Source of the DNA: Cliona cf. orientalis | Lineage: Eukaryota; Porifera; Demospongiae; Clionaida; Clionaidae | Length of the DNA stretch: 64,000 nt | Direction of reading: 5' to 3' | NCBI GenBank assembly: GCA_963930775.1 | Contig: OZ005689.1 | Span: 21,843,718 to 21,907,717, forward strand | In this document: positions 4,240-57,239 of the stretch, piece by piece | How positions within the stretch are numbered: the stretch's first letter is position 1 | How the letters are laid out: each line of letters begins with the position of its first letter | Program-made: the position numbers and the translations under genes | The notes under the pieces: generated by a model | The model's input: only the letters and a program-made list of their open reading frames with translations | Databases searched by the model: none | What the model was told of the DNA's origin: nothing

Positions 4240-4499
4240 TAGTTTGAACATCTTTCAGAGTAGAGTAGATAATACATGAACCCTACGCTGAACCTATTTG
4301 TAAAGATTTCCAGCATATGTTGACTGACATGGTTCCTGTGAAGCCTTCTGGTTCAACTTTTTACCTCTTTTGTTTTGTATGAATATCTGTAGGTCTAAAA
4401 CACAACTAGAAGAGAGGTGCTACACTAGTACAAGGTGAGGATATTGTCACAGTCACAGTACCACTTGTATTCTATACCTGCATGGTCTTAACATACGCC

Positions 4500-15707: not shown

Positions 15708-18350
15708 ATGGCAAGCTCAAGGAGCCGTTTGCAGACCACTTTCCTCTCTTCTGACCCGAACTTTCTGCTCGACTACATGGCCGGTCTCGCGTCTGACGAT
15801 AGCGACGATGACTTCGATGGATACCTGCTCTCAGACGACGAGCCAGACCAGCCAGAAGATGGTAATAACCAAAATAAATAATGTATTATTACTACATAGA
15901 TTTATATATACGATTTATGAACAAAACAACTAGCTACAGACCCCGGCAGCTCCATGACTAGCGCAGCAACTGGCAGCTCCTCCCCCACTGATGCTCGTGA
16001 TGGCCACGCCTCTCCCACCAGTCCTGGTAGCCCCTCCTCCAGTGGCAGTAGCAGCAACAGCGGTAGCCCTCCTCATAGCTTCACAGCCAACCCAGGTGTA
16101 GCAGGTCACATAAAAGATTTCTCTCCTGTGGACTGCTTCCTTCAGCTGTTCGACCAGCGAGCTCTCGAGCTTCTCCACAAGGAGACCCTTCGCTACCTCG
16201 AGCAGTACCTGGAGGATAACAAAGAGTACTTGGATGAGCACCCAAATGCTAGAGTCCATGAGCTAGCAAGACACCCCATCACCCTGGAGGACATGAAGGC
16301 ATTTATTGCTATCCTCATAGGAATGGGGATATGCGGCTTTCCCACTATTCGGTAAGTTGTTACAATCATCATTTTTGTATACCATCTCCTTACCTTCTCA
16401 ACCAGGAGTTACTGGAGTAATAGCTGGCCGTATCAGAATGACAACTTCCGTTCCATCATGTCAAGCCGCCGGTTTGAAGTCATTCTGAAGTTCCTCCACC
16501 TGAACGACTCCCGACAGCAACCATCGCGTGGAGAGCCGGGGTATGATAAGCTCTACAAGGTTCGCCCCCTCCTCAACCTCGTCCTGGAGAACTTTCAGGC
16601 AATGTACACCCCGACTCAGAGCTTGTCCATTGATGAGAGCATGGTGGGATTCAAGGGGCGACTTGCTTTTCTCCAGTATATGCCGAAGAAACCACAGAAG
16701 TGGGGGATGAAGGCATGGGTCCTAGCGGATGGTGCAAATGGGTATGTGTGGAACTGGAAGTTATACACAGGCAAGGAAGACAACTCACACTCTACTCTCG
16801 GCTTGGCTCACCGGGTGGTACTTGATCTCCTCGATGATGACCGGCTCCAAGACAAGGGGTATCATGTCTACATGGACAATTTCTACACGAGCCCTGCGTT
16901 GTTCAGAGACCTGCGTGATCAAGGTTTCGAGACGTGTGGAACAATCAGGTCTAATAGAGTAGGGATACCTGAGGACATCCGGTCAGCCAAGTTGAAGAAG
17001 GGTGAGAGCCACTTTAGCCGAGATGACTCAATGCTGTACATGAAGTGGAAGGACAAGTGGGACGTGCTAATGCTGAGTACATTCCACGATGACACCTTCA
17101 TAGAAAAGAGGCGTCGTACTCGGCATGCGGATGATGGAGTGGAGGTAATCCAGAAGCCGAAAGTAGTTGAGGAGTACAACCTACACATGGGGGGTGTAGA
17201 CAAAGGTCAGTATTGTGATAATTGTGACCGGATTTGGGAAAACCCTCCGTATGGGATTTTTTCAGAAAATTGACTTTGATGCATGGTTGATAAGCTCTAC
17301 CATAGAGCTAACCCGCGTTCAAGTCTTAGGCCGATCGCGCGCTTCGTTGTGGAGATACAGCGCTTTGTTTGTGATCGCGCCACACCCCCAATAATCGAGA
17401 AATTACGGTCTAAAGGCGTTGCTATGCACGTGTATGGCGTTTCCGCATACTACGCGTGACCCGGAAATCAATTAAATGGACCTGGGCGGAGCCGTTCGAA
17501 ATGAATGTAAAGATCGAGCAAGAGTTGAATTTCGTTGTTGACAAGGACAGGCGATTGTTCTTAGATGCCCAAGAAGTTAAAAAGGTAAGCGAACGTACAG
17601 TAGATCGATGAATCTAGCTGTATCTAGGTAGAGAATTCTAATTACCGTCCATAGCAACGGGCTTCGTGTACGGTGGCTGTGCCGACTAAGTGGGTCAAAA
17701 TGAAGGCCTTTGTATAGCACGACTAGCCTCCGTAGAAGACGGCAACAGTTAGAAGAAGGGTTGTTCGACATGTATATGACAAAATCTGGACTTTGACAAA
17801 TTTAGACCTGAGCTACTAAAAACGCGCATTGCGCGAATCGCGCGCGGATCCCATACGGAGGGTTTTCCCAAATCCGGTCACAATTGATGACCAATATCTT
17901 CATTACAACTTACCATAAATAATACATTTTTTAGCTGATCAGATGGTGCTCTACTATGGTTTTGCACATCGTTCCATCAAATGGTGGAAGCGTGTATTTT
18001 TCCACATCCTGGATACATGCATTGTAAATGCACACATCCTATATAATGCAACATCAGAAAAGAAACTCACACAGCTGGAGTTTCGCAGAGCTGTAGCAGA
18101 GGGGCTGTTGTGCAACTATGAGGCAGCAAAGGTTCGACATCGAGCACAGGACCCTCATCTTCCACTTCGTCTCAAGGAGCGGGCTTTCCCTGAGCCCATC
18201 CCAGAAAACAGCCGTCCAGACTGCCATGTATGCAGTAATAGAGCAGCTGGTCGCAGGCGCCAGACATCGTACCGCTGCAAGCTATGTAAGACTCCCCTCT
18301 GCCTCTATCCCTGCTTTGAGAAATATCATACTCTTCTAAATTATAAGTAG
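15708..18350 (+). CDS. piggyBac transposase
   Basis: DDE/D-type transposase that cuts and reseals DNA at TTAA. Four exons: 15708-15861, 15940-16351, 16406-17205 and 17935-18350, all GT-AG and in frame, giving about 593 residues, normal for the family. The start at 15708 begins MASSRSRLQTTF and leads into an acidic segment (ASDDSDDDFDGYLLSDDEPD). A Ser/Gly/Pro-rich part follows. The core carries LSIDESMVGFKGR, HVYMDNFYTSPALF and MGGVDKADQM, placing all three catalytic Asp. The last motif is split by intron 3, so correct splicing past the MITE is required for activity. The C-terminus has a Cys-rich zinc finger (CHVCSN...YRCKLCKTPLCLYPCF). No stop or frameshift was seen, so it may be functional. 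Confidence 0.93.
17223..17882. mobile_element. 660 bp MITE, derivative of RAG1-like element, copy 1
   Basis: Inverted ends TGTGACCGGATTTGGGAAAA (17223) and the reverse complement ending GGTCACA (17882), flanked by AT on both sides. It lies inside intron 3 of the piggyBac transposase. The interior at about 17550-17610 (CAAGAAGTTAAAAAGGTAAG, then CGAACGTACAGTAG) matches the exon/intron border of the RAG1-like gene at 55170-55215, and both halves match the ends of the 46197-55530 element. Confidence 0.85.
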
Positions 18351-23659: not shown

Positions 23660-23982
23660 GGTTGCTATGGACTGCATACCTACCAAGTCTCACTCCTTGG
23701 GAGTGAGTCTCACTCCTATCCACCTAATCTCACTCCTGACACCAGCAGAAAAATGTATTGTTTTATATTGGATCTCACTCCTGGTGCTCTAATCGTAAAG
23801 TATTGTACTATTAGTAGCGAGTCTAAATCTCACTCCTCACCATGTTGAACCCTTGGCAGCTATGGGACTGATCAATCGGAGAGCTGCTTTTGCGCCCGCC
23901 ATTTCTAATTAATGCACACCCCTAATGCATAGACACGCGGCAGTAAGCGAAATCTGAAGGTCTTGACTGTGTTGAAGCTCGA

Positions 23983-25742
23983 TTGTTGCTCAGAGATGCC
24001 TTTTTTATGCAAAAGAAGCAACTACAACAGGCTCATGATAGCAAGCGCCGAAAACATCAAGAAGTTGAGAATCAAGATCCAGAACAAGATGGTGGTGAGG
24101 AAGAAGTACTTGAATCACTAAGTGACTATGAATCAGAAAATGACGATTTTCAGCCTGAAAATGAAGTACTTGATGATGAAACTATGATTCATCTGTATTG
24201 TGAGTGGATTGATGATCTGCACCGAGATGATCTAATGTCTCTTACGATAGTTTTACATCACCTCCTGGCTCTCCATTTTCCGTTGACAAGGGCAACGCAG
24301 CTGATTGCAGAGTTAGTCGGAAAGAGTGATCGCACGGTTTGGGATTGGCGAGCAACTTTCCTGGCAAATTCTGGATCATTTCCGGAGACACTTCAAGGAA
24401 GATATCAGCGTACAGGTATCCTATGGCAGAACGAAGAGCTTAATAAAAAAGCAAGCACGTTTGTGAGAGCTAATAAAGCCATTAAAGGGCGTCCAAACAT
24501 GAAGGTAGCATGTTTTGCCAGGTGGGTTAATGAAAATTTGCCTCTGAATCACGCATTGGAACCTGGATACCCTCGCCAAATAAGCCAAGAAATAGCAAGG
24601 AAATGGCTACATGAACTGGGCTTCTGTGTTCTTGATTCCAAGAAGGGAACTTATGTTGACGGCCATGAGCGGCAAGATGTCACTGACTACCGAGCCGAGT
24701 TCCTCCGCAAAATGGTTGCTCTTGGGTTTTTGAATTCTGAAAACTCCCCCACTCCTGAAGCTGCACATAGTCTACCCAAGGATATCGACATCCCACCAGC
24801 AGAGCAAATTGCCAAAACCATCATCTTATTCCATGACGAGTCAACGTTTCAAGCAAATGATTGTGAGCGTACGCAGTGGGGCCAAACAGGAGAGCACATA
24901 CTTGTACCGAAAAGCAGAGGTGCCGGCATAATGGCATAATGGTCTCTGACTTTATCAGTGAGCAGGATGGCTACTTAAAGCTCTCAGATGAAGAATTTGC
25001 CATTGGTCGTACAATCTTACCTGGACTAAATCAGTATGCTCGAGCATGCATAGAATATGGTGAAAACAAAGATGGTTGTTGGACCTTGGATGGATTCATG
25101 GAGCAGCTTGAATACTTTGCCAAGTATCCTCAAAGTGACGGCTTCAAAGTGGTATGGATTTTTGACCATTCAAGTTGCCATGGGGCGTTTGCTGAAAATG
25201 CACTCAATGCTTATAGAATGAATGCTCGCCCCGGTGGCAAACAGCCTCTCATGCAGGATGCTGTGTGGCAGGGAAGAGTCCAAAAGATGGTGTTCAGTAT
25301 CGGAGTGGCCAAGGGGCTGATACAGGTTCTAAAGGAAAGAGGGAAATACCAGAATGGGATGAAATTGGATGAAATGAGAGCGGAACTGGCAAGCCATCAA
25401 GATTTCAAGAAGACTCGTATTGAACACTTCCTGAATGGGAGAGGACACTGTTGCATTTTCCTGCCCAAATTTCATTGCGAGTTGAACCCGATAGAGCGGT
25501 GTTGGGCACAGGCAAAGAGATTTACTCGCTCTTACTGCAACTACACGATTGGCAGCTTGCGAAAGAATGTCCCTGAGGGATTGGACAGTTTCAGTGGAGA
25601 ACGTTCAGAACTACTATAGGAAGGTACGCCATTACATGTTTGGGTACCTGCTTGGCTTTTCTGGTGGTCCTGACTTGGAGGAGCAGGTAAAGAAAATGAA
25701 GAAACTGTACAAGTCCCACCGTCATGTTGGAATTCACGAGTG
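23983..25742 (+). pseudogene. Tc1/IS630-like DDE transposase, two frameshifts
   Basis: Near-complete DDE transposase of a type I recall from fungi and invertebrates. An acidic Glu/Asp N-terminus (residues 20-60) leads into a helix-turn-helix-like region (ELVGKSDRTVWDWR) and the family signature KKGTYVDGHERQDVTDYRAE. The core shows FHDESTF, VWIFDHSSCHGAF and HCELNPIERCWAQAKRFTR, giving D, D and E. The frame is broken at about 24930 by an 8 bp tandem duplication of GGCATAAT; the second frame (GIMVSDFISEQDGY) continues the alignment. A second shift near 25590 leads to VENVQNYYRKVRHYMFGYLL and the stop at 25741. Flanking inverted repeats were not identified. Confidence 0.8.
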
Positions 25743-27641: not shown

Positions 27642-28062
27642 TGTGATAGGATCTGAGAAAAGGGGTAATTTCGCGCAAAACGCTAAATTTTGACATTTTT
27701 CAAGTTGCCACCACTCAAAGGTACCAAGAGCCATAGGCTTTATTCTTGGTTTATAAGCACCCCAGCCCTTCTACTAAAGAAATCCAACGTTAGAAAGCCT
27801 AGCTATGTTCTTACCTGAAATGGTGGAGCTCCAAAGTGAGGTATAAAACGGCCGATTTTCGACCGCGTGCAATACGGGCGATCGCCACGCCCACACCGGA
27901 AGTGGGCGGGGCGCAAAATTTTCAGCGAGTGTAGAGCAATGATGGGAGAATCATTGCACCAGGTTTGGAGATTGTAGCTACTACAGCCTTGAAGATATGC
28001 GCGATTTAAAACGAAAATTCGGCCTGCGCGCGAAATTACCCCTTTTCTCAGATCCTACCACA
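27642..28062. mobile_element. 421 bp MITE, TGTGAT...GAGAAAA ends, TA duplication
   Basis: Inverted ends TGTGATAGGATCTGAGAAAA and, from the right, TGTGGTAGGATCTGAGAAAA, both followed by GGGGTAATTTCGCGC. A related empty site at about 26680 (CTTCCTATATGACTT) shows the insertion duplicated exactly TA. Partial copies lie at 51829-51935 and 54721-55019. The first 20 bases match the RAG1-like element's left end while the interior differs. Confidence 0.88.
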
Positions 28063-31979: not shown

Positions 31980-34900
31980 ATGAAATTTTAATGCATTGCA
32001 TAGTGGTTGGACAGTTAGCCTTGGGCTAGTGTTGAAGTCCTCCCATAGAACACAAAGGATAGACAAAATAAGACAAATTGGACACAAAAAGTGCATAGGA
32101 GGGGAAATGAAGGAGTCTTAGATTAGGCAAGGGAAAGGCGACTCTTGAAAATATTAGGAGAGGGGCTGTTGACCACAAATGGAGATAGGGAATTCCAGGT
32201 AGGGATAACATCTATGAAGAAAGAGTGACGATAAGAGAGAGTGGGAACAAAAGGTTGAAAAAGTATTCTATTGTGCTGGGAGATGGGCAAGGGTGGAATG
32301 TGAAGGTTGATTGTGGGATGCAGGAATTGTTATTCAAGATGTTATAAAGGACCTTTAACTTGATATTCTGCCTGCGGACTTTCAAGGAGGTCCACCCCAG
32401 TGTTATTAGTAGCTTGTCAGTGTTTATGGTCCAGTTGTGAAGCACCATCCTACCTGCAAACCTTTGCACACTGTCTAGTCTGGCGATGTCTTGCTTTTGG
32501 TGGGGATCCCACACTGCGGAGCAATATTCCAGTTTAGGCAGGATTATTGTATGAACTATTTTCCGGCGGACATCAACTGGAACTTGGTGAAGCTGTCGAT
32601 GGACAAGACCAATCTGTTTTTTGGCTGCCTTACTGATGTTGGTGATGTGCTCGGACCAGGTCAGGTTTGACGACAGGGTGACTCCAAGGTACTTGACGGA
32701 TGGACTGGGGGGAATGATGTGACCTTCAATCTTAAGGTTGGTAGAGATAGGTCGACGAGAACGTGAGATAGTTAGGAGCTTTGTTTTGGTGTGGTTTGGG
32801 GTCAGACCATGCTCACGTATCCATTTAAGGATGGCATCAACATCTTCCTGCAAGTTGCTAGTGTCCCCGGCTGAGTTGATTGGTTTGTACAGAAGAATGT
32901 CATCGGCATAGAGAACAATTTTTGTTCCATCAGATAGTGGGATGTGGCTGATTGAGTTCATGAAGATTATGTATAAGAGAGGACCAAGGATAGAGCCTTG
33001 GGGGACTCCTGAGGTGACAGGTTTGTAGGTGGAAGAAAACCCGTCTAAGACGACTCTTTGGTGTCTTCCAGAGAGATAGTTGGCAAACCACTGGTGGAGT
33101 TTCCCCGACACCCCAATATCTGCAAGAGATTGAAGCAGTTGGTTGTGGGGGACTGAGTCAAACGCTTTCTTGATGTCGAAGAAAACTGCTGCGACTTGGT
33201 GGTTGGTAGAGAGGTACTCATGCCAGTCTCTGGTGATGGTTAGAAGAGCATCTTGTGTGGAGGATTTTGGTCTGAAGCCATATTGGCAGTCAGACAGGAC
33301 ACTGTTTTTGAGGAGAAAATCCATTACTCTATTATGGACACACCTTTCAAGTACTTTTGAGATCAGAGAGAGAAGGGAGATGGGACGATAGTTTGAGGCA
33401 TCTGATTTATCTCCTGATTTGTGGATCGGTGTTATGTTGGATCGTTTCCATTCATCTGGAATGGAGCATTGCTTGAGAGAGAAGTTGAACAAGGCCGTCA
33501 GGGCTGGAGTGATAGAGCCAGCTGTACCGCGGAACATCACACTGGAAATTCCGTCTGGTCCTGATGCAGTATTGACTTTATGCGTGGAAAGTAGCTTGTA
33601 AACTTCATTATGCGTGCAGGTAACACTGGATATAGTTGGGCTAGATGGGTGGGGCAGAGAGGAGACATTAGACTGAGGTTCAGATCTGGTGAAGCAGGAC
33701 GTGAAGAAATTATTGAAGAGATTTGCCTTTTCTGTTGGTGTGTTGGCGTTCTGGCCTTGATGGTGGAGATTGGCAGGGGTTCTGCTGTGCTTGGGATTGA
33801 GTTTGTGGTATTGAGACCAAAAATCCCGCGATGAGTGGATGTTATCTGCAAGCTGGTGAAAGTAGATTTTCTTGGTTGAGCGCAGTGCGCTAGTTACTTG
33901 ATTTCGGATTTTGGTATATTTGAACCATGCTCTGGCTGTCCCGACCCTTTTGGCGTGGTTGTACTGGCGATTTTTCTTTCTGACGAGGTGGAGTAAATCG
34001 TCAGTGAGGTAAGGAATCTTGGTTTTTGGTTTTATCTTCTTGGTGGGGATGGTTTCTCTCATAATGGTCATGAAGACATCTGACCATTCAGCCCAGAAGT
34101 TGTTCACATCGTCATTAGAGAAGATGGAGGTCGGTAGGCATTGGAGAGTGGTGTTAGCTGAATCAAAGTCAGCTTGTTTGTAGAGCCAGATTTCCCTACG
34201 ATTTCTCCTTGGATGTTGAGTATGGCGGTTGGTTAGAGAAATCTGTAGGATGTTGTGGTCAGAGCCAGGAAGAGGAGGCAAGTTGATGCACTGGGAGTTG
34301 GTAAGTTTCTCGGAGACATAGATGTGGTCAATGATGGTGGAGGTGGTTGTGGTTGTGCGCGTGGCAGTAGAGACTACTTGCTTCAGACCCAGTTTGTCTT
34401 CTATTGAGTTAAGGATTGGTAACAGCGAGTGGCTGGTTGAGTGAGAGCACTGAGAGCGATCGATGTTGAAGTCGCCGAGGAGCACAAGAGACCTCAGTTT
34501 GGATGGTGGCAGCTGTTCTAGGGTAGACTCAACTTCTGTCAGCACAGAGGCACTCGATGATGGGGGGCGGTAGAGTAGCCCACAGAGCATCGAGGAGCAT
34601 CTCAGGCGGATTTCGATAACAAGGAGTTCTACATTGACATGAGATAGGATGACAGCAAATTGTAAGTGGTCTTGGACAAACATAGCAATACCACCACCAT
34701 GCCTATCTCTATCTCTGCGAATGAGCTGGTATCCAGGGATCATGAGCTCACTGTCAGTGATTGTGTTGTCGAGCCAAGTCTCAGCGATCGTAATGATGTG
34801 TGGGTTTTGGGTTGAAGCTAGTAGTCGAAGATGGTCAACTTTGGGTAGAAGGCTGCGACAGTTGGTGTAGAGGATGGTGAGGGCGTTTGGTGGTGACAAT

Positions 34901-35530
34901 GACTGTGACTGCCGCCTCTGGTTGCCACCTATCGTGTTACTGGGTGTCAAGGAATCGCCGTTGGCCGAGGTGTTGATAATGGCGTCAGCTGAAGCATCGA
35001 AAATGGAGTCCGAGTTGGATACGTCATGGAAAGGCACGGCTTCTTTTAGACATCTTTTGCAACACCAGGATTCGTCAGACACTTGTAGCTGGGCGTACTC
35101 TTCGTTGGATATACCGATGCATCTGGTGTGTAGCCAATTCGCACAAACGTCGCACTGAACCCCTCGCTGGTTGCTCTTCACTGGCTTGCTGCACACTCCG
35201 CACGGATATTTCCAACATCTGGGACCTGGATTCACTTCTACGTCGCCAGCGAGTAGGAGTAGCCAGGTGGTTAGCAGAGATCGGGAGGCTTTCAGGTGCG
35301 AAACTTTTGAAGCGGCGGCTACTTCGCAAAGGTGGACTTTCAGGCTGGCGGGAGCGAACCTTATCGAGTCTGGGGGATCCCCACAGAGGTGGTTACCATG
35401 TGGTTTACCACAGAAGGCAGGGCTCAACCGCAACATGGCGAAAAGCACGATAAGCGCACAGAGCTGGAAATTGCACTTCATCATCATCATAAAATTATGC
35501 GCTGAAATAATATTATCGGGAGGCTTTCAG
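31980..35530 (-). mobile_element. PHD-finger non-LTR retrotransposon (LINE)
   Basis: Near full-length minus-strand LINE with one long open frame (35490-32212). The 3' region runs to about 31980, next to the end of the repeat array. The 5' region ends near 35520, where TCGGGAGGCTTTCAGGTG repeats a motif found at about 35280. No clear poly-A or target duplication was found, so the outer borders are approximate. Inserted in an intron of the DUF6589-like gene, antisense to it. Confidence 0.8.
32212..35490 (-). CDS. LINE polyprotein: PHD, endonuclease, reverse transcriptase
   Basis: 1092-residue single-frame protein. After a hydrophobic start, residues about 95-150 form a PHD/RING-type zinc finger (CGVCSKPV...VQCDVCANWLHTRC...WCCKRC). 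Residues about 205-430 are an apurinic-type endonuclease (LYTNCRSL, ITIAETWLD, VLLGDFNID, GSDHN). Residues about 620-890 are the reverse transcriptase with NYRPISLLSLISKVLE, FFDIKKAFDSVPH, GVPQGSILGPLL and YADDILLY, so the catalytic Asp pair is intact. The maturase-like tail (YLGVTLSSNLTWSEHI) follows. This architecture fits the CR1/L2/jockey side of LINEs. Near 32258 a one-base shift moves the last ~40 residues (IDVIPTWNSL, FKSRLSLA, to about 32130) out of frame. The copy is otherwise open and looks young. Confidence 0.92.
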   Translation of the reverse strand: MMMMKCNFQLCALIVLFAMLRLSPAFCGKPHGNHLCGDPPDSIRFAPASLKVHLCEVAAASKVSHLKASRSLLTTWLLLLAGDVEVNPGPRCWKYPCGVCSKPVKSNQRGVQCDVCANWLHTRCIGISNEEYAQLQVSDESWCCKRCLKEAVPFHDVSNSDSIFDASADAIINTSANGDSLTPSNTIGGNQRRQSQSLSPPNALTILYTNCRSLLPKVDHLRLLASTQNPHIITIAETWLDNTITDSELMIPGYQLIRRDRDRHGGGIAMFVQDHLQFAVILSHVNVELLVIEIRLRCSSMLCGLLYRPPSSSASVLTEVESTLEQLPPSKLRSLVLLGDFNIDRSQCSHSTSHSLLPILNSIEDKLGLKQVVSTATRTTTTTSTIIDHIYVSEKLTNSQCINLPPLPGSDHNILQISLTNRHTQHPRRNRREIWLYKQADFDSANTTLQCLPTSIFSNDDVNNFWAEWSDVFMTIMRETIPTKKIKPKTKIPYLTDDLLHLVRKKNRQYNHAKRVGTARAWFKYTKIRNQVTSALRSTKKIYFHQLADNIHSSRDFWSQYHKLNPKHSRTPANLHHQGQNANTPTEKANLFNNFFTSCFTRSEPQSNVSSLPHPSSPTISSVTCTHNEVYKLLSTHKVNTASGPDGISSVMFRGTAGSITPALTALFNFSLKQCSIPDEWKRSNITPIHKSGDKSDASNYRPISLLSLISKVLERCVHNRVMDFLLKNSVLSDCQYGFRPKSSTQDALLTITRDWHEYLSTNHQVAAVFFDIKKAFDSVPHNQLLQSLADIGVSGKLHQWFANYLSGRHQRVVLDGFSSTYKPVTSGVPQGSILGPLLYIIFMNSISHIPLSDGTKIVLYADDILLYKPINSAGDTSNLQEDVDAILKWIREHGLTPNHTKTKLLTISRSRRPISTNLKIEGHIIPPSPSVKYLGVTLSSNLTWSEHITNISKAAKKQIGLVHRQLHQVPVDVRRKIVHTIILPKLEYCSAVWDPHQKQDIARLDSVQRFAGRMVLHNWTINTDKLLITLGWTSLKVRRQNIKLKVLYNILNNNSCIPQSTFTFHPCPSPSTIEYFFNLLFPLSLIVTLSS

Positions 35531-46050: not shown

Positions 46051-46811
46051 ATTTACATTGCGGTGTGTGGAACCCTATACTAATTTATTGTATACAGTGT
46101 GCACACAAACTATACAACAGGGTAGGCTGAGTTCTGGTGGGTGATCTCATTTAATGCTGGAGATCCAAGGTACCAGGGCTTACAACAATAATTATATGTG
46201 ACCGGATCTGAGAAAACCCGCCATACTTGTCAATCCATGAAAATTTATTTGCTATATATTTGGATAGCTAGGGCTAACCTGTCTCCAAGTCTGAGATACA
46301 TAGCGCGCTTGGATGCGGAGCTAGAGTGCCTTGAATGTGATTGTACCACACCCCCAATAAGAGAAATTATGGTCTCAACGAGGCACTTAGTTGATAATTA
46401 GAACATTACGGTATACTTCTAGATTTGACTGCGTGCGTAGCCAAACTCATTACCATTCCTGGTGTTTGCTACATATACTGAGAGATCCAGGGACTATATA
46501 AGCTCAAAAAACTGTTACAAATATAAAGAATCACTGATAAACACTATGGGTAACAGTGCGCAGCAGCTGCACGCACAAGAAACCACTGTGCAACCACGCA
46601 GCTGCAAGGATTCCCACACGAATTTTGGAGTAGCTCCACTCTGGACCACATCCTGCCTCTCCGGTTAACAAAGATGGTAGAAATACATTAGTTATCTTTA
46701 GCCTTATTTTTGTGCAAAGTTATAGATAATTGAAAAATTTTGAACATTCAACATAAATTATTAATGCATGTAGATAGCCAAACAACCAGAGCAGATCCAC
46801 CAGACTAGACT

Positions 46812-48014
46812 CAAGAGTCTCTGTAGGGTGTGTGGCAGTTCCCTGAAACAGTAGGACTGTGTATGATTCTAAAAATCATAAGGATGATTTGCTGGCTGTA
46901 TTTCACATAGACATAGACATAGACATCTCACCATACACCATACACCCCGATCGATAATGTGAAAAGCGTAGGACACTCATCACTAAGTCCAAGAAGGCAG
47001 CTACAGAAGGAAAGGTGTACATGCAGTGTTAAAGCCTTTGAGTGGCAGTCATGATCCCAGTGGATGCAGTATCTGTGCTATACCAGTGGGTGGGAGACCC
47101 AAGAAACTACCCAAGAATCGGGGACGTCCTACTGCTAACGGTACACACACACTTATCACACATATTAAGCAGTGGTCACCACGAAGCCTCTTACCAGAGA
47201 GTATAAGGAGCAGCAGACCACCCTTTGTCCTGCCCTCATCCCTTGGATTAAGACCAGAAGATGTTGAGTACTCTGTTCTCACCTTCTTGACCAACCAGTG
47301 CAGCTCTCATGTGGTTCAATTGTGTGCATGGAATGTTTTTAGGTCAGTATAGATCAATGTTTAATACCTCACCCAAAATTTATTATAAAAACTGTGCTTA
47401 GATGGATAGAAGTATAGGGTAAGGGAATTGGTCCATGTTGCTACACCAAGCATACTGTTGTAGATTTGCTACAAATGGTTGTTACAACTCTATATTATTA
47501 AATTCTTTTATCGAACTCTCTGATTTTGCATGGAATATGTGCAGCTTATATACACTCTACAATAACTGAGTTTCAGTGAAGTGGTACAGAATTGCGTGTG
47601 CGAAGTATGGTGTAAATAAGTGATAAAGGTGTGAGCATGACACTGAGGGCGAACGAGAAGTAATCATGCACTAGTATTAAATGACAAAAATTATCACCTA
47701 AGATTATGTACAGAAATCATTGATCAGTAGGACAAGTGTAAATTAGTAATGATGAAGCTACAGAAAATATTAATGTCCACTACACTACCAGAGAGCAGTG
47801 TCCTGATGAAGGTTCTTGGACGAGTGATCGTCAAGTGTTCTGTGTGCCTTGAGATGGTGCACATAGACAACATTCACACACATCTAGCTAGTGGATGCAA
47901 AAAGATCACAACAGACCTGTCAGTGTCACTTATCCTGTCTCAGTCACTGACAACACCAACTACACCCACTGAGCGACAACTGGCGTCCAATCTAGTCAGG
48001 CGGATGGATGATGG
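46812..48014 (+). pseudogene. RAG1-like protein, N-terminal zinc domains (relic)
   Basis: N-terminal part of the transposon protein. Around 46820-46960 the pieces SLCRVCGSSL, HKDDLLAVFHIDIDIDISPY and TIHP follow the RAG1 central zinc region (CRICGN..., VFRIDV...SIHP). Then GCSICAIPVGGRPKKLPKNR and GRPTANGTHTLITHIKQW. A RING-like exon end (about 47255-47345) has lost several Cys. The exon from about 47808 has RVIVKCSVCLEMVHIDNIHT and HLASGC, matching the C2H2/TRAF-like finger after the RAG1 RING, then ILSQSLTTPTTPTERQLASN. The coding DNA is cut at 48014 by the next element; four bases (ATGG) are duplicated. Frame changes and stops near 46850 and 46960 show decay. I recall the name N-RAG-TP for mollusc elements with RAG1 N-terminal similarity; I cannot check identity. 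Confidence 0.7.
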
Positions 48015-48252
48015 TATAACATGAATATTCATAATTGTCACACTAATGAACAAGATAACCAAGACAGCTCCTACGTTATGTTATGTGAACTATGAATAGA
48101 CAAAAATTATGTTTTGTGTCTAGTTTCGTCGGATGGTCCTTCAAACTTTTCAGCCATTTCAAGGGCTAGTGGTCTGTGATTAGTACAAATTTGTGTCCGA
48201 ACAAGTATTGCCGGAAATGTTTTATTTACCAAATCATTGCCAAAACTTCTTT

Positions 48253-50135
48253 TCATTTATGGAGTGTTGTCTTTCCGTTTTGGTGAGTTGCCTGCTGGCG
48301 TATGCAATCACACATTCGGCTCCTTATATTTGTGACAACAATGCCATTGTCTGATGCATCAGTGTAAAGTCGGAATGGGACATCAAATCGTGGGAATGCC
48401 AGTACGGGAGCCTTCGTGAACCTTTGCTTTAGCTCTTTGAAGGCTTTCTGGCAATCCTCTGTCCAGACATACTGAACTGATATTTGTGTGAGGCGATGCA
48501 GAGGAGATGCTATTTCAGCAAATATTGGTACAAAGTGTCTGCAATACGATGCAAATCCAATGAACTGTTTCAGTTCCTGAACGTTCCTGGGGGGTGGATA
48601 TTCATCCAATGCTGCAGCCTTACTCGGATCAGTGGCAATTCCTACTTTTGATACAACATGGCCCAGGTACGTTATTTCTTGTCTGAATAGGAAACGTGTT
48701 CGTGGGGTTCAGCTTCAAATTCGCTTGGCAAAGCCTAGTCAACACGTCTGTCAGGCGAGAGATATGGTCCTCAAATGTACGAGAGATCACAATGTTGTCT
48801 AGGTATACTAGACATGATGTACCAACAAGGCCCGCCAGGACAAATTCCATTAATCTTTCAAATGTGGCAGGGGCATTACCCTGCAAGTAGCCAGATCCAT
48901 GGTGGAAAAATATTTTGCCCCACTTAGAGCTTCCCTGCAAAGAGCCAGATAAAAGATCCATGGTTTTGCCCCACTTAGAGCTGCAAGTAGCCAGATCCAT
49001 GGTGGAAAAATATTTTGCCCCACTTAGAGCTTCCCTGCAAGTAACCAGATAAAAGATCCATGGTGGAAAAATATTTTGCCCCACTTAGAGCTTCCAGGGT
49101 GTCTGCTGTGGGGTAGGCATCCTTGAGGGTTACTTCATTCAACTGCCGATAGTTGACGCAAAGCCGGGTGCCTCCATCTTTTTTGGGGACAGACACAATT
49201 GGGGAAGCCCATGGGCTTCGACTTGGCAGAATTATGCCATGGTCTAGCATGGAGTGGATTTGTGTGCTAATTTCTTCTCGCAGGGCATGAGGTATTCTCC
49301 TCGGAGCCTGACGTTTTGGTCTTGCTTCACCTGTGTCAATTTGATGCTCAATTAATGTTGGTCTACTGTAATCAGTAGAGGATTGTGGGAAAGCATGCTT
49401 AAATTCTTCCAACAATTGCAAGACCTCCTTACTTTGCCGTGAAATTAAGTTGTTTGAATCGAGCAGATTAGCCTTCCAGTTTTGTCTCCAGGTAATACGG
49501 CTGACACACAAATGGTATTGAGCTCGTCCCATATATTGTTCTGAAGTGGGTGAAATGTGCCAATATTCATGCCTTTATAAATCTTGACTTCAGGATTTGA
49601 AAGATTAAGCAGTCTTACCGGTATATGTTGCTTAGCAGAAATGGGCTTCTTTTCTGACTGCTTGCTGCAAGTCAACCCCCTCTGAGATTCTGCTGTCGTA
49701 TTAACTGATGGTTGCAATGACTTCAAGCTCCTCTGTGCTGCCCTTGCCACGCCCAGTTGTCGTACGAGTTTCGTTTCTGGCGCCTCTTGGAGTAGGCGTT
49801 GTACACACTCATCAAACAATCCTTCAATTAACTGGTCTCTAACGACCTGCTTTCTCCGTCAGATCTGGAAATGCCTTGACCTGTCGTGCAAGAGCTTCTG
49901 CATATGCATCGAAGGTTTCTCCATCCTGTCTTTGTCGGCGCAGATGGAATCGATATTCAAATGGGCTAGTTGTAGGTGAAAAGTGTTTCTTTAGGGCTGT
50001 TGTCAATCGTCCATAATCTTTAAGGACCTCTTCCGACAGGCTCAGCGAACTGACCAGTGAAGGCATCATCCAACGCTGCAAGCAGAACATCACACTTCCA
50101 TCCTTCTGTGACTTTAGCAGCACTACAGGATTCAA
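48253..50135 (-). pseudogene. Ty3/gypsy gag-RT fragment
   Basis: Minus-strand retrotransposon body. Gag-like piece 50135-49839 (LKDYGRLTTALKKHFSPT, RRQRQDGETFDAYAEALARQ). Then 49819-49445 with KPISAKQHIPVRLLNLSNPE, the spacer normally after the protease; the zinc knuckle and the protease active site are missing. The RT starts at 49532 (LIEHQIDTGEARPKRQAPRR, SRSPWASPIVSVPKKDGGTR, LCVNYRQLNEVTLKDAYP), has motif A repeated (FSTMDL), and continues NAPATFERLMEFVLAGL, LVYLDNIVIS (catalytic YxDD is YLDN), then NVQELKQFIGFASYCRHFVP and FRLYTDASDNGIV at the RNase H start (48609-48253). Integrase and LTRs are absent. Defective. Confidence 0.85.
48884..49093. repeat. Tandem repeats inside RT motif A
   Basis: Units of about 55-70 bp containing CCAGATCCATGGTGGAAAAA and TTTTGCCCCACTTAGAGC recur four times, some lacking internal bases. 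On the minus strand they repeat the motif A segment (AKYFSTMDL then GYLQ). Confidence 0.8.
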
Positions 50136-50479
50136 ATCTGTTAATCCACAGCTTAAAATCCTCCGATATTGAATAGCGCGTAGGCATCCAAATGCTTGTC
50201 TCTGATTTAGCAGGATCCCACCACTGCCACCATAGTAACTAGAGTGGTTCTCAGGTAGGTTTGATTATTGAGATTAGCAATTGAGTCTGATCATACAGTA
50301 TGAAATCAGCTACTTATATAGAAAGTAGAGTAAGGGCTGATACAGAAGGTAGAATAAGGGTTGCTCCAAAACTAGACACAAAACATAATTATTATCTATT
50401 CATAGTTCACATAACATAAGTAGGAGCCGTCTTGGTTATCTTGTTCATTAGTGTGACAATTACGAATATTCATGTTATA

Positions 50480-51828
50480 ATGGCAGCAACAACTAGTGAT
50501 TCTGTACAGATCACTACAGGAGGACAAGTGAGAAAGAAATATTCACCAACAAATGCATATTAGTTACACTTGCCATAGCCACTCATACTTGTCCATATTT
50601 CATCACCACGGGTGCCATCTGGAGAAGCAAGTGCCAGGATTCTCCATAGGAGAAGCAACGAATGGCAGAGTATCCGCACAACCATCAGCAAGGATGCTAG
50701 CACAGTCCAGTTCGAAGTAGAGGTAAAAGCACTTAGCCAGGAGAAGTGGCAGCAGCTGTTAAAGGTTGCCGGAATCACCATTGACATCCCTCCCTCCAGA
50801 GCAAGGTCTAGCTATGAAAGCCGACGTTGCTATTCCTTGCAATCGGCTATGGATAATACATACGGTGGTACATGCGTACTTAAACTGGGGAAACATTGAA
50901 CTATATCAGTATACTTTGTATAGATGGCTTACACAGTGGAATGTGAGTATTGCTAGTGAGCGTAAGTTGAGGAAGCGCTCAAAGGAGGTAGTGACCGACA
51001 ACCTCAAGGCAGAGGGAGTACCCTTCACATTCTCACTCCACTCAGGTGGTGAAGAGATCAGAGCAGCTCCTTTGGCCTATAATCCAGATCTCAAGGAAAA
51101 GATCTTTCTGATGCTTGACAAAAATAGAGTATAATCATCCTAGAGGGTCTTTACTAGCATAGGATTACTTTCTGATGTTTTGTAGTCTCAACAAGCTGAC
51201 ATGGCATCATGCATCTATCCCTGCTGATGAGATGTGGGTGAAAATTGGTGGTGATAAGGGTGGAAGTTCATTCAAGTTGAACTTCCAAATCGTTAATGTC
51301 CCCTGTCCCAATAGCATCCATAACACTTGTGTTTTCACAGTATTCCAGGCACCAGACACCATTACCAATTTACCTGTAGCTCTGGATCGCTACAAAGAGT
51401 CTCTTGCTGATCTGAATAAGACCAAGTGTAGATTAGAATATAAAATAATGCTATAATTATTGCTATATTATTATAGAAATTATAAGCTTCGGATTTTTTT
51501 GTGGGGACTATGAAATTCTCACAGAATTACTGCAGCTACCGGTATTTTCTAAGCATTTATTAATGAAACCATCATTAGTACTAAAATAGGTTGTCACTGC
51601 TGTTTATGGTGCCATATCCAACAAGACCAGTTGAAGCTTATTCCATCAACAGTGCCAATGATTGAGCGTTCCTTGGATACCATCATTGCTGACAATCAGA
51701 GATTCATGGTTGCTGGAAGAAATGTCAAACCAGTCAAAGAATTTAACAATGCGCTCCACGAACCTTTTTTTCAATCTTCTGTTAGACTAGGTACACACTT
51801 CCCAACAGCTGTAACATCCAATCCTATA
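50480..51828 (+). pseudogene. RAG1-like protein, catalytic core (relic)
   Basis: Continuation after the TIR element: DSVQITTGGQ before a GTGAG donor (50530). Exon about 50597-51128: VPSGEASARILHRRSNEWQS, KWQQLLKVAGITIDIPP, a frame change near 50790, EQGLAMKADVAIP, LYRWLTQWNVSIASERKLRK. Exon about 51187-51460: IPADEMWVKIGGDKGGSSFK, QIVNVPCPNSIHNTCVFTVF, PVALDRYKESLADL. Exon about 51478-51545: KLRIF..CGDYEI with a frame change. Exon about 51600-51828: CCLWCHIQ (C-x2-C), RSLDTIIADNQRFMVAGRNV and EFNNALHEPFF. The Asp of IGGDKGG, Asp of CGDYE, C-x2-C and the Glu of the last exon follow the order of RAG1/Transib-type cores (D600, D708, CTLC, E962); this correspondence is my inference. Frameshifts make it inactive. 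Confidence 0.7.
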
Positions 51829-51935
51829 TGTGGTAGGATCTGAGAAAAGAGGTAATTTCATGCATGGGCCGAATTTTCATTTTAAATTACACATAACTTC
51901 AAGGTGTAGGCTGTAGTAGTGGAAAGTGCTGGCGG
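51829..51935. mobile_element. Truncated copy of the 421 bp MITE
   Basis: Starts TGTGGTAGGATCTGAGAAAA, GAGGTAATTTC, and follows the right half of the 27642 element in reverse for about 100 bp before similarity stops. It adjoins the RAG1-like core exon. Confidence 0.7.
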
Positions 51936-52380
51936 TAGTATCCCATGAAACCCTTTATGTTTGTTCCTACATAATGCAGGTTGTAATTATATAGTGGCCA
52001 CTATACAACTACCAAAGAGCTCAAATGCTGTCTGAAACTTGTCACGTATGCTCTCTGCGTCTGGTACTAAAGCAGCACACCTTGCTTGAGCTACCTATAC
52101 TTGAGCAGAGTAAAGAGTTTTGAAGTTCAAGTTCATTTAATAGGTTAGTGAAGTATGTAGCTATGAGTATTTATCTAATAGTAGTACCTTGAGTGATCAG
52201 TGGACATGGTTTCCCACAAAAGTGCCACCATGGTAAGCGCTTCGCCCCATGTTAAAGGATGGAGCAAAACCTTTATGTATTGTTGTGAATCTTACTCTAA
52301 ATTATGTATAAATTTATATGTACTGATGATGATTTTTTTTTCGACAATTCAAGGAATGTGATCACTAACCAGTGTTGCTA

Positions 52381-53947
52381 CAGTGCTACTGAGCAAGAGA
52401 GTACACAATTACCAGTGTATGTGTATGTGTATGTATGGCAGGGCCGGTGGAAGCAAATTTACATTGGTCAGGCCATGCCTATCTTTATTCACAAAATTAA
52501 TAGCGGCTAATTGAAAAGAAATTTAAATGCATAAGATTATTAAAACTGTCATAGAGACAAACTGTTTCACTATAGTTAATAAGTCACAATTCACTATTAT
52601 TCACTAAAGCGCCATACCGTTAGTTGCTATTATCCAATGCCCAACTTTCGTGCACGTGCAGCTGCTATTCGACTAAGTTAATTCTCATCCCCAGACCCCA
52701 CCCCCTAGGCTATCGCACGTCACGGGGTGGAGTCTGGGTGCGGATCGATCGTGCGCGTCGTATGTTGGCATGTTTAGTAGTTAGCTATTCTCGATTGATG
52801 TGGAGACTACGTCGGCAGAAAGTGAAACTGAGTGAGTAATTTAGCTGAAAAATGGTCCGGCCAAAACCGGAGCAACCGGACCGGTTCCACCGGCCCTGTA
52901 TGGTTATTGCAAATTTTCCGGGTGAAACTTGCATGTATTCCGTTCCTACTTGGTACCCAGTTAAGTCAATGGATGGACTATCTACATCTCAAGCGGCAGG
53001 CTGAGCTCACCTTTCATAGGGCTTCAGCATGCGAAAATGTCCAAAAATTATTGATTTTTACGTTAGGCACTCTATCACAACACTCGATTATAGTTAATTA
53101 AGAACACCAATTTGAGATGAAGATAGACACCAATAGGACACATCTTTGTGCCAAATATGAAGTCTTAACTATAAACAGTCTTGGTGATATTTACAAAAAT
53201 AGTATAAAATAAGGCCAACTTAAGTTAGGCACTCAATCTTGCATGAAACTTTTAGTTAAGAGCTGATATTACACTTTATGCATCCTTATGCATTAACAAT
53301 CCTAATGCGTGCATGAAACTGCGAATGTTTTGCAGGAAACGCCGAATCCGGAAGCAAACATTTCCGCCACTTTCTCCAGACGGGTCAGGGTCCTCATTGA
53401 TGACGTTGCCCTGAACGCACGTGAATTAAACTGACTTTTAATTGACCACGCCCTCTGGCGATCTGAAATGAGACGATGGCGAGAATGGCGTTGTAAACGT
53501 CGAACATTGAGAAGCTCATCGCTTCTTATCGATCTAAATGAGGTAAGATACTAGCAGTAGTCAGGTCAGTAACATTTTTTCCTCCAAAGCCTCAAAAGAA
53601 GTGTGGTAGGGCGGACACTTTGTGCCTGACTAGACGGCCGCTCGTATCAGCCTTGTACGTTAATATTGTAGAGAAATAGGCATATACTAGGCATTTTCTA
53701 CTTACTACGATGCTCTCCAAATCTTCCAACGGCCGATTTTTTCTTGATTTACATTGCTATATATTGTGCACGTGATATTACATCGACGTCACGACACATC
53801 ATGCCTTCTGTTACGGAACAGTCTTCCTTTGGAGCCTTATACACTACTACTCTACTGCAGCTAAAATCACTATTTCTGTGATTACTGGTCAAAATAAGTG
53901 CACATGCAAAGTTATAAAAAAATGTACTCTCTTGCTCAGTAGCACTG
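52381..53947. mobile_element. Pogo-type element B, TA duplication
   Basis: Ends CAGTGCTACTGAGCAAGAGA and the reverse complement, TA on both sides (52379, 53948). Shares its interior with element A and lacks A's two nested elements, but has its own insertion at 52439-52898. No transposase. A pogo/Tigger relic lies 2 kb downstream and is a candidate source family. Confidence 0.88.
52439..52898. mobile_element. MITE with CAGGGCCGGTGGAA ends, 5 bp duplication
   Basis: Left CAGGGCCGGTGGAA, right TTCCACCGGCCCTG, flanked by TATGG (52434-52438 and 52899-52903). Element A has the uninterrupted sequence at this place. Ends and 5 bp duplication fit hAT5-like elements. An internal 20-30 bp inverted repeat (CAGACCCCACCCCCT / GGGGTGGAGTCTGGG) lies at 52690-52740. 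Confidence 0.8.
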
Positions 53948-54098
53948 TACTTTTCGTCGTAACTCAACTACAGATTGTCGGCAAAATTCAACTTGCTGTG
54001 TGTTCGCCCCTCTCACAGCAAGAAACGTGCTCAAGTATTCTGCTGCTGATGCTTCCTCATCTTCCCTCTGCTTTTCTCCTTCAAGTTCCTTGATAAAT

Positions 54099-54522
54099 TG
54101 TGACCTGCTCTGAGAAAAGGGACCACTTGGGATATTTCATAAAATTGAATTTTTAGCATGGATTGATAGCTCTATGTCTGCTGAATCCAATGGTGCAAGT
54201 TTCATGAAAAAATATCGATCACAAGTGGAATTATGACCATTTTTATACACGCAGGTAGATATATTTGTTTTTCGGAAAATGCACATATTTAATCAAATTT
54301 TGTATTAAGTTGTATGTGTCCGAGCAATTGTTTGCACCCAAGCATTACGATAGTTTACAGCAAGTACATAAACATAGCATATCAATATGAAACTAAAATT
54401 CTACATTTCTGGTAGACTAAAATACAGAAAAATGATAAATATTTATTTTCCCCACATTTTAGCTATTATTGTAAAATGAAATTTTATCCCAAGTGGGGTC
54501 CCTTTTCTCAGAGCAGGTCACA
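54099..54522. mobile_element. 424 bp MITE, TGTGACC...GAGAAAA ends
   Basis: Ends TGTGACCTGCTCTGAGAAAA, GGGACCACTTGGGAT and the reverse complement (ATCCCAAGTGGGGTCCC, then GAGCAGGTCACA). The terminal 20 bases follow the RAG1-like element; the interior is unrelated to the 421 bp or 660 bp families. AT-rich flanks, no certain duplication. Confidence 0.82.
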
Positions 54523-54720
54523 TTTTATATAGCAGCTGAGTAGAGCTCGAAGGAGTGCAGAGTATCTGGTTGTCTACCCCCTTATGCTAATAGGCCAAGT
54601 GATGGCAAGCCTCCTCAAGCACGTCAAATAACCTGTCAAAAATACCACGAGTTAAGTGTAACCCTGGCATACACACCTACAATCTATGTATGTATGTATG
54701 TATGTATGTATGCATGCATG

Positions 54721-55019
54721 TGTGATAGGATCTGAGAAAAGGGGTAATTTCGTGCAAAACGCTAAATTTTGACACGTTTCAAGTTGCCACCACTCAAAGG
54801 TACCAAGAGCCGTAGGCTTTATTGTTGGTTTATCAGCACCCCAGCCCTTCTACTAAAGAAATCCAATGTTAGAAAGCCTAGCTATGTTCTTACCTGAAAT
54901 GGTGGAGCTCCAAAGTGCGGCATAAAATGGCCGATTTTTGCCACGCCCATACCGGAAGAGGTCGGGGTGCGAAATTTTAGCGAGTGTAGAGCAATGATTG
55001 GAGAATCACTGTACCAGGT
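54721..55019. mobile_element. Truncated 421 bp MITE
   Basis: Starts TGTGATAGGATCTGAGAAAA and follows the 27642 element from its left end to about GAGAATCACTGTACCAGGT, where it abuts the last RAG1-like exon. The right quarter and right inverted repeat are missing. Confidence 0.78.
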
Positions 55020-55194
55020 CAACGCTACAATTTTATCTAAAATGCACATCTTGGAATGTCATGTTCCTGGATGGTTGAAGAAGTGGGGTGTTGGTCTGGG
55101 CTTGATGGGTGAGCAAGGTACGGAGAGTATTCACTCCTTCAACTCCATCGAGAAATCATACCACAGTATCCCAATTGTCCAAGAAGCTGAAAAG
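55018..55194 (+). pseudogene. RAG1-like protein, C-terminal core exon
   Basis: Exon reading VNATILSKMHILECHVPGWL, KKWGVGLGLMGEQGTESIHS, FNSIEKSYHSI, then VQEAEK and a GTGAGT donor at 55195. The pattern K-x-H...H-V-x10-G-L-G-L-x-G-E-Q-G-x-E-S-I-H is the one I associate with the third catalytic Glu of this family and resembles the RAG1 stretch GAWASEGNESGNKLF. The following intron sequence continues as the right end of the transposon. Confidence 0.68.
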
Positions 55195-55850
55195 GTGAGT
55201 GAACGTACAGTAGTTTAATGAAACTAGCTGTATCTAGAAAGAGAATTCTAATTAGCGCCCATAGCAATGGACTCCATGCACGGCAGCTATTACAGACTAG
55301 GTAGGTCAAAATGAAGGCTTATTTCTTTTGCCTTTGTAGCTTATGTTTACCCTTCGTAGGCAGTGGCAACAGTTAGTAGAAAGGTTCTTTGACATAAATA
55401 ACAAACTGGATTTCATATTTGACTACAAAAAATACTAAACATACAAAAAATTTAAAAAGATAATATTTAAACGTGCATTGCACCAAATGCGCGATTGACA
55501 AATATGCCGGGTTTATGAGATCTGGTCACATAATATTATAATGATAAAACAGTTATGGCGAGACTGAGCGAGTAAGAAAAAAGCAAGTGCCTATGTACAG
55601 CAGGGAGATATTGTCAATGCGCACTAATTTCAAGTTTCAGCACAGTTTGTGAAGGAAAATTTCGGATCAAGATGATGGAGCAGTTATCAATCAAGCGGTT
55701 TACCCAGTCAGGACAGCCATTCGCCCCATTTAAGGGCCCTCTAAGGACTCTACAGCCTATGGGTCGAGTACCAAAAGTGAAAAGACTCAAGTTCCACCTG
55801 CACCCCAGAGTGAAAGTGGCCAAGCTTCCCTTGGTACCAGTTAGAATTTA
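55195..55850. other. Right end of RAG1-like element, then spacer
   Basis: 55195-55530 matches the right halves of the ~660 bp MITEs up to the terminal GGTCACA. 55531-55850 is spacer before the Tigger relic, with no gene recognised. Confidence 0.55.
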
Positions 55851-57239
55851 AAGCCTACTAAAAGAGTCAGAGCTGCCTATACCATTGCAAAGAAGCAGCA
55901 AGTGGTGAAGTATGCCAAGGAGCACAGTGTTTATCAGGCAAGCAAACATTTCAATATCATCAGTTCAGGAACAATAGGCCCTTGGATGAAGATAGTTTTC
56001 CAAAGAGAACACTGTAGACTGTAGACTGTAGAGTATTCAGAGTTGCTGGAAGTGGAAGAAAGCTGAGTTATCCAATGAAGAAGGAGAAAAAGTTGGTAGC
56101 ATGGGTCCTGAAACAGGAGATCTACATCTAGCAGTCTCTATACAGCACATCATCGACCATTCAGGCTTCTACTCCATCCTTTCAAGGAACCAGAGGCTAG
56201 GTTCAGAAATTCATGAGACGAAACAACCTATCTTTGCGAGCTAAGACATCCACCACACAGAAGCTACCTGCTGCCCTCGAGAAGATGGCAACTTTCATCC
56301 GGTCTGTTCGAGATATCAGGAAAGAATTCAAGTATCCAGACAGCATGATAGTCAACATGGATGAAACCCCCCATGTGCTTTGACATGACTGTCAACAAGA
56401 CAATCAACCAGAAAGGTGCAAAAGCTGTCTCCATTAGATCCACTGGTGCTGAGAAGCGACGGCTAACAGTTGTCCTGGCTGCAAATGGAGATGGACAAAT
56501 GCTCTCCAATGATCATTTTTAAGGGCAAAAGGGCTCTTAAAAACATCTCTGTGCCTAGGTAAGACTGTAACTAAAGTATGTTTATAGTACACTTCATCTA
56601 TAATATGGCATCTTATTTTATACTTATAGTGGATGGATTGTATGTGTTCAGCAAAAGGGGTGGATGGATGGCACCCTCATGATGCGATGGATCAACGAAA
56701 TCCATCTCAAGTACACTGGAAGCAAGAAATCACTGTTGGTGATGGATACTTTCAGTGCACATTGCTCCAATGACATCATCAGCTTGCTTTCAAAACATCA
56801 CACGAGAGTCGCCCTCATCCCTGGAAGTTGTACATCCAAGCTACTGCCTCTAGATGTCTCACTAAACAAGCCTTTTAAGCAGGTGTGTAGGTGTGTAGGT
56901 GGGCAGGAGTTCCAGACTTACTTCCGTTCCCAGCTTGCTACCATGCCTAGCTCAGCTGATCGTCTCAAGACTGCCTCCAAGCAAGAGATCTGCCAGTGGG
57001 TGGTAAAAGCCCAGAAATACCTCTCAGCTCACCCTGAAATGATCACAGTCATTCAAAGTCACTGGGATTTCCCTAGCTCTGGATGGATCTGAAGATCACC
57101 GTTCAGAAACAAGGCCATCCTTGAGCAAGCAGACGAACCAGAGGATGAAAGGGAAGGTAAAGAAGATGATGATCCTTTTAGCTCAGAGTGTGACAGTGAA
57201 AGCGACAGCGAGGATGAGGATGGACTTAGTGCTAGTTAG
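55851..57239 (+). pseudogene. Pogo/Tigger-like transposase relic
   Basis: Tc1/mariner-superfamily pogo-type transposase. N-terminal CENP-B-like helix-turn-helix at 55851-55995 (KKQQVVKYAKEHSVYQASKH, FNISSGTIGPWMK). After broken sequence, about 56205-56520: RRNNLSLRAKTSTTQKLPAA, IVNMDETPMCFDM (frame change inside), KGAKAVSIRSTGAEKRRLTV. An intron at about 56559-56629 (GTAAGA...TTATAG). Second exon: GWMDGTLMMRWINEIHL, SLLVMDTFSAHCSNDI, IPGSCTSKLLPLDVSLNKPF. MDE, MDTFSAH and LDVSLNKP give the D, D, D triad. The tail is out of frame near 57090 and ends in an acidic stretch (EDDDPFSSECDSESDSEDED) with stop at 57239. Its own inverted ends were not identified. Confidence 0.85.

Follow-up and report, generated by a model that had tools for sequence, protein, structure and literature searches.

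The window, that is, the whole stretch of DNA analysed here, comprises 64,000 nucleotides of Cliona cf. orientalis (C1:21843718-21907717), and the genome searched for comparison amounts to 216.8 Mb in 149 contigs. At 46197-55530 of the window, we found an inverted repeat of ~39 bp (arms 46197-46235 and 55493-55530), with TA on both outer sides, which encloses zinc-type Cys/His motifs and, downstream of these, GGDKGG, CGDYE, CLWC and GEQGTESIH in that order, just as an earlier note on this DNA had described. Compared with copies elsewhere in the genome, the locus is made up of bases 1-189 of a MITE with TGTGACC ends, followed by sequence related to Chapaev transposons and then by MITE bases 345-673, so that one element lies nested within the other (Table 1).

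Table 1. Features of the nested locus, in window coordinates
Feature	Position	Strand	Basis or remark
TGTGACC MITE, left part (left arm of the inverted repeat)	46197..46375	+	84% to bases 1-189 of L054; TA outside
Predicted Chapaev transposon remnant	46376..55169	+	Blocks aligned to L015, a 5131-bp element
RAG1-like N-terminal remnants (Chapa zinc domain, RING, C2H2), with stops and frameshifts	46798..48014	+	Spliced alignment to L014 protein
Insert within the gene, ~112-bp terminal inverted repeats	48015..50479	.	Broken gag/RT-like frames, minus strand
Middle exons ahead of the catalytic core, frameshifted	50487..51146	+	tblastn and spliced alignment
Frame with the exon of the first catalytic D (GGDKGG), DUF1280	51163..51456	+	Pfam DUF1280 E=8e-13
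Second catalytic D, CGDYE	51500..51514	+	Sequence; spliced alignment
C(2)C motif CLWC	51601..51612	+	Sequence; invariant in five-protein alignment A1
Stretch with gene-inverted blocks, insertions between	51921..54727	-	Minus-strand blocks to L015
Small MITE-like insert in the remnant, TGTGACCTGCTCTGAGAAAA ends	54099..54522	.	
VCPPGLH exon, within the inverted stretch	54596-54727	-	L015 alignment
Last catalytic exon, H(4)H and catalytic E, 3' end cut	55018..55169	+	
GEQGTESIH (catalytic E)	55108-55134	+	In last catalytic exon
TGTGACC MITE, right part (right arm of the inverted repeat)	55176..55530	+	TA outside

As reference for both MITE parts we used a complete MITE of 673 bp (L054), to which the right part is 76% identical over bases 345-673; against L055, the right part shows 86% identity to bases 338-580 and 78% to bases 591-664. 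The sequence between them aligns to its closest gene-bearing copy, L015, in forward blocks of 85-93% identity and inverted blocks of 78-94%. The leftmost block starts at base 8 of the L015 element, within the left MITE part; bases 8-11 overlap the MITE match, and clear Chapaev sequence begins at about base 12. The last block ends at base 4304 of 5131, at ~55169 of the window. These limits of the L015 and MITE alignments indicate that both Chapaev tips, ~830 bp of the 3' end and ~155 bp of the MITE have been lost. From the terminal inverted repeat of the remnant the first ~11 bases are missing, and no CACGGGTGTTTCA-like match with <=3 mismatches was found in 46-56 kb. Since the window copy has neither a CAC tip nor a readable 4-bp duplication, its Chapaev membership rests on its relatives.

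The reading frame of the window copy is broken by stops and frameshifts. Matches to the exon carrying GGDKGG number 25 genome-wide, counting its own copy, and a PDB search with the last exon of the window copy gave no match. Within the gene, the L015 alignment is contiguous on either side of the insert at 48015-50479, which is 2.47 kb long, has a possible 4-bp ATGG duplication and shows weak gag/RT-like Pfam matches; its terminal repeats, which have 10 genome matches, are inverted and not direct, which is odd for an LTR-type element. This insert, the inverted internal segment, the stops and the frameshifts had escaped the earlier note.

Elsewhere in the window, frame reading revealed look-alikes of a piggyBac-type element (16356-17273), a LINE-type reverse transcriptase (32212-35526) and another DDE-type transposase (23947-25619). 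As regards the host, a silicatein-like query had 32 genome matches, from which four short stretches were fetched. Two of them (L058, C12:3674493-3674627, and L059, C12:3671688-3671822) contain CGASYAFSA, in which Ser takes the place of the Cys of cathepsin L; this Cys is retained in the remaining two. Ser at this position marks the silicateins of demosponges, and a demosponge is accordingly the probable host.

Two sets of transposon ends

The inverted repeat belongs to a common element. Searching the window with TGTGACCGGATCTGAGAAAA at <=3 mismatches returned 11 matches, against none in 100 shuffles, and the TA-led TGTGACC end pattern matched the genome 1290 times in forward and 1338 times in reverse orientation (control 0), a total of 2628 that, with TA built into the search pattern, does not independently establish a TA duplication for the MITE. 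We retrieved nine facing pairs of these ends, six of which delimit complete units (651-702 bp); the others measure 424, 1338 and 1626 bp. Together, the genome-wide matches and the complete short units identify the TGTGACC...GGTCACA repeat as the ends of an abundant MITE of ~650-700 bp. Elements of this family, ending in TGTGACC(GGATCTGAGAAAA) or in variants of that sequence, occur throughout the genome and, in the window, at 17223-17882, 27642-28062, 46197-55530 and 54099-54522. No autonomous partner of the TGTGACC MITE was found. A pogo/Tigger-like DDE_1 frame with 99 genome matches lies shortly past the MITE, at 56604-57092 of the window.

The ends of the transposase-bearing element were read from its relatives. 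We fetched 10-kb regions around 20 other loci with the GGDKGG exon and compared them pairwise, taking as ends the points where likeness stops. Nine of these loci had two clear ends, delimiting elements of 4502-5154 bp, and the remaining 11, lacking two clear ends, were left out of the end counts. The ends read CACGGGTGTTTCA...TGAAACACCCGTG or CACTGCTGTTTCA...TGAAACAGCAGTG, i.e. CAC...GTG, in all nine gene-bearing copies, and TGTGACC ends in none; the ends of these relatives speak against the reading of the earlier note. An exact 4-bp target duplication flanks seven of the nine, while L009 and L015 match at three of four positions.

The end pattern CACKGSTGTTTCA had 56+60 matches in the genome (control 5+6). 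Among the matches listed, and apart from the gene-bearing copies, 19 facing end pairs lie <=3.1 kb apart (1386-3080 bp), and the 4-bp duplication is exact in 15 of these shorter pairs, matched at three of four positions in L029 and L033, and unmatched in L035 and L038. Counting the nine gene-bearing copies together with the shorter pairs among the matches listed, the 4-bp duplication is exact in 22 of 28 end pairs and an exact 5-bp duplication occurs in none. The duplications of L030 and L032 say little, because both sit in repeats of the same letters. The 2-bp duplication that had been attributed to the RAG1-like element is the TA of the MITE. One shorter pair (L036) carries a gene fragment. 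Fourteen of the 19 shorter pairs among the matches listed (L030, L032-L035, L037-L040, L042-L045 and L047) measure 1386-1407 bp and resemble one non-autonomous family, a likeness of length and ends without mutual alignment.

Unoccupied sites were sought by comparing the joined flanks of the 28 insertions with the fetched sequences. A junction-spanning match was obtained for seven (L015, L033, L035, L037, L039, L044 and L046), four of which were examined closely. The joined flanks of L044 align without gaps over 96 of 96 columns, at 98% identity to L020 and 94% to L016, and at 88% over 92 columns to L009; those of L037 align without gaps to L013 at 84%. The joined flanks of L046 are the TGTGACC MITE itself, with 81% identity to L051 and, along 62 bases, 90-94% to L018 and L053; the gaps fall away from the junction. 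In all three cases the unoccupied paralogues close up on a single 4-bp copy; the flanks of L035 join with a 2-base remainder. L046 (C13:4159441-4162443) is thus a second Chapaev-ended element in the same MITE family, near the insertion point of the window copy. Viral contigs gave 122 pattern matches, none of them a relative.

A transposase with the front half of RAG1

Two relatives yielded open proteins after splicing: 975 aa from 10 exons in L014, where the start is not fixed, and 985 aa from 11 exons in L020, with short GT-AG introns in both. Several copy pairs are 91-98% identical, which, together with these open frames, suggests that the Chapaev family was mobile not long ago. We built a family profile from an alignment of five spliced proteins (A1), three of them from broken copies and with the window copy excluded, in which the other four proteins are 37-56% identical to the first. 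In a PDB search with this profile, RAG1 was hit at E=4.6e-20 over residues 142-377, a collinear match that takes in the zinc-rich Chapa region, the RING and then the C2H2 finger; an N-terminal construct of RAG1 alone was hit at E=3.3e-9. Ordinary RING proteins rank after RAG1 in the same search, from E=1e-8, so the RING part by itself is not specific. A Pfam search of the five proteins at E<=5 detected RAG1_imp_bd (best 2.9e-11) and DUF1280 (best 2e-14) in every one of them, and the RING model zf-C3HC4_4 in two. Judged by these profile matches, kinship with RAG1 is right for the N-terminal half of the transposase.

All five proteins likewise have the C(2)C, LH, H(4)H and E motifs. The first D is found in four (N in L012) and the second D in four (H in L028), L012 and L028 both being broken copies. 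In every protein the distance from the second D to the first C is 19 residues, as it is from D708 to C727 in RAG1.

Direct comparison of this core with the mouse RAG1 core was not significant (hhalign E=0.23, probability 0.3%). Ungapped motif-window scans against RAG1, each with 2000 shuffles, gave a mixed picture. The best place of the second-D/C(2)C window was exactly RAG1 D708-C730 and that of the E window exactly E962, with scores reached by 158 and 84 of 2000 shuffles, respectively; a shorter second-D window was equalled by 339/2000 shuffles, and a combined HH-E window fell in the right RAG1 region at a score that 470/2000 shuffles reached. The first-D (701) and HH (997) windows fell elsewhere in RAG1. 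The earlier reading of a RAG1-type N-terminus followed by a C-x2-C-containing D/D/E core holds; the direct match of the core to RAG1 is not significant. DUF1280 is described as corresponding to Chapaev transposases, in one clade with RAG1 (PMC3985635), and C(2)C and H(3-4)H are given as common to EnSpm, Mirage, Chapaev, Transib and RAG1 (PMC12730594). With our own comparison not significant and the motif scan mixed, we take the kinship of the core with RAG1 from the accounts in PMC3985635, PMC4411706 and PMC12730594.

A RAG2-like partner, also raised in the earlier note, was looked for among open frames, without a kelch profile, and no such frame was seen in four elements. The flanks beside the transposase in these elements span 0.47-0.67 kb and hold frames of <=136 aa, the longest of which overlaps the gene start; minus-strand frames of <=166 aa lie inside the gene span.

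Chapaev assignment and proposed history of the locus

The hallmarks listed for Chapaev in PMC4079192 are target duplications of 3-4 bp, CAC/GTG ends, C(2)C, LH and H(4)H, and PMC4411706 describes a Chapa domain followed by a RING in two Chapaev subgroups. In the sponge family we find CAC...GTG ends, a 4-bp duplication, a DUF1280 core, D/D/E with C(2)C, LH and H(4)H, and Chapa plus RING. By these published hallmarks the family is, as its sequences indicate, a further Chapaev member; the published definition covers it, Chapa+RING subgroup included, and it is not the new lineage that had been proposed. A literature search on Chapaev or RAG1-like elements in sponges, Porifera or Amphimedon found no title on a sponge Chapaev.

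Chapaev with Chapa and RING (Kapitonov and Jurka 2007, as related in PMC4411706) has the same Chapa-RING order, DUF1280, motifs, CAC...GTG ends and 4-bp duplication; compared by description, the present family differs in its host, a sponge. Chapaev3, according to PMC4079192, shares the CAC/GTG ends, C(2)C, LH and H(4)H, but its duplications are 3-bp TWA, and identity with it is ruled out by the exact duplications of 4 bp. Transib and ProtoRAG have RAG1-related core motifs in common with the family, and TransibSU is described as carrying a truncated Chapa domain (PMC4411706), whereas here a RING is present as well. Their duplications are 5 bp (PMC8355894), so the absence of any exact 5-bp duplication from the 28 end pairs, the shorter ones being among the matches listed, excludes identity with them; the earlier statement that the element is not a canonical Transib/ProtoRAG was correct. 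Vertebrate RAG1 shares the collinear N-terminal half but is a host gene, while the present family is a mobile element whose core lacks a significant sequence match to it. N-RAG-TP of Aplysia, as presented in PMC8355894, likewise has RAG1 N-terminal-like sequence in a mobile element; it is described there as wholly N-terminal-like, whereas the sponge family adds a DDE core. ESTA, a group of fungal CMCT elements, is reported as RAG1-like by HHpred (PMC12730594) and has TA duplications such as the earlier note had proposed, while TA here belongs to the MITE and not to the transposase-bearing element.

The intact relatives encode a single cut-and-paste transposase of ~980 aa, which has RAG1's module as its RING/zinc N-terminus. 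By analogy with the family, its D/D/E core with the C(2)C...H(4)H zinc site would bind and cut 5'-CAC ends, and joining to staggered target cuts would leave the 4-bp duplication. For the RING, a role as ubiquitin ligase is possible, judging from what PMC4411706 relates of RAG1. The window copy would have landed in a non-autonomous TGTGACC element of ~670 bp that had TA at its flanks beforehand, and a later deletion would have removed, besides ~155 bp of the host MITE, both tips and the 3' end of the Chapaev, an order of events that we infer. Through the loss of these parts, the MITE ends would now mimic the ends of a RAG1-like element.

We consider it almost certain, from the comparisons above, that the window sequence is a dead, rearranged Chapaev of the Chapa+RING subgroup nested in a TGTGACC MITE. 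The earlier proposal, a lineage of RAG1-like transposons that end in TGTGACC and duplicate 2 bp (TA) of their target, draws on the coincidence of repeat and gene motifs at one place, 46197-55530; we reject it as extremely improbable because the relatives have other ends, with CAC...GTG and 4-bp duplications, exact (7) or at three of four positions (2), in the nine two-ended gene-bearing copies, whereas its supposed ends have 1290+1338 matches across the genome and bound complete 651-702 bp copies in six of nine fetched pairs. Very unlikely, if somewhat less so, is a composite: the remnant of a Chapaev would have become trapped between MITE ends, and the resulting unit of 9.3 kb would have transposed as a single TGTGACC/TA element. 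The remnant is indeed surrounded by the two MITE ends and their TA flanks, but the MITE parts are the complementary left and right of one MITE, as simple nesting predicts, and although TGTGACC-type matches occur in five of the 20 fetched gene loci (L011, L015, L018, L024 and L027), they enclose the gene on both sides in none of them, a count in which 10-kb stretches could miss a large composite. The long open coding sequences of L014 and L020 could also be taken for a host gene domesticated from a Chapaev-like transposase, that is, a sponge RAG1-like recombinase, yet each of the two is bounded by CAC ends of its own and an exact target duplication, close paralogues exist for both, and the window copy is disrupted by stops, frameshifts, an insert and an inversion, which makes domestication scarcely credible.

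Recognising a dead, nested Chapaev at this locus removes a false lead, that of a RAG1-like lineage with 2-bp duplications, and illustrates that nesting inside a common MITE can mimic another transposon's ends. What the sponge offers is a Chapaev with RAG1's front half, real ends, 4-bp duplications and apparently intact transposases; the apparently intact Chapa-RING-C2H2-DDE transposases are the most interesting point that remains. It is possible, though in our judgement rather doubtful, that a silicatein-bearing sponge holds a recently mobile Chapaev with intact transposases and the whole Chapa-RING-C2H2-DDE order, and that the full RAG1 N-terminal architecture joined to the core predates the sponge split. 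If true, this family would be a living, testable proxy for the ancestor of RAG1's front half. With real ends and apparently intact transposases in hand, the deep origin that has been proposed for the RING and Chapa domains of RAG1 becomes open to test.
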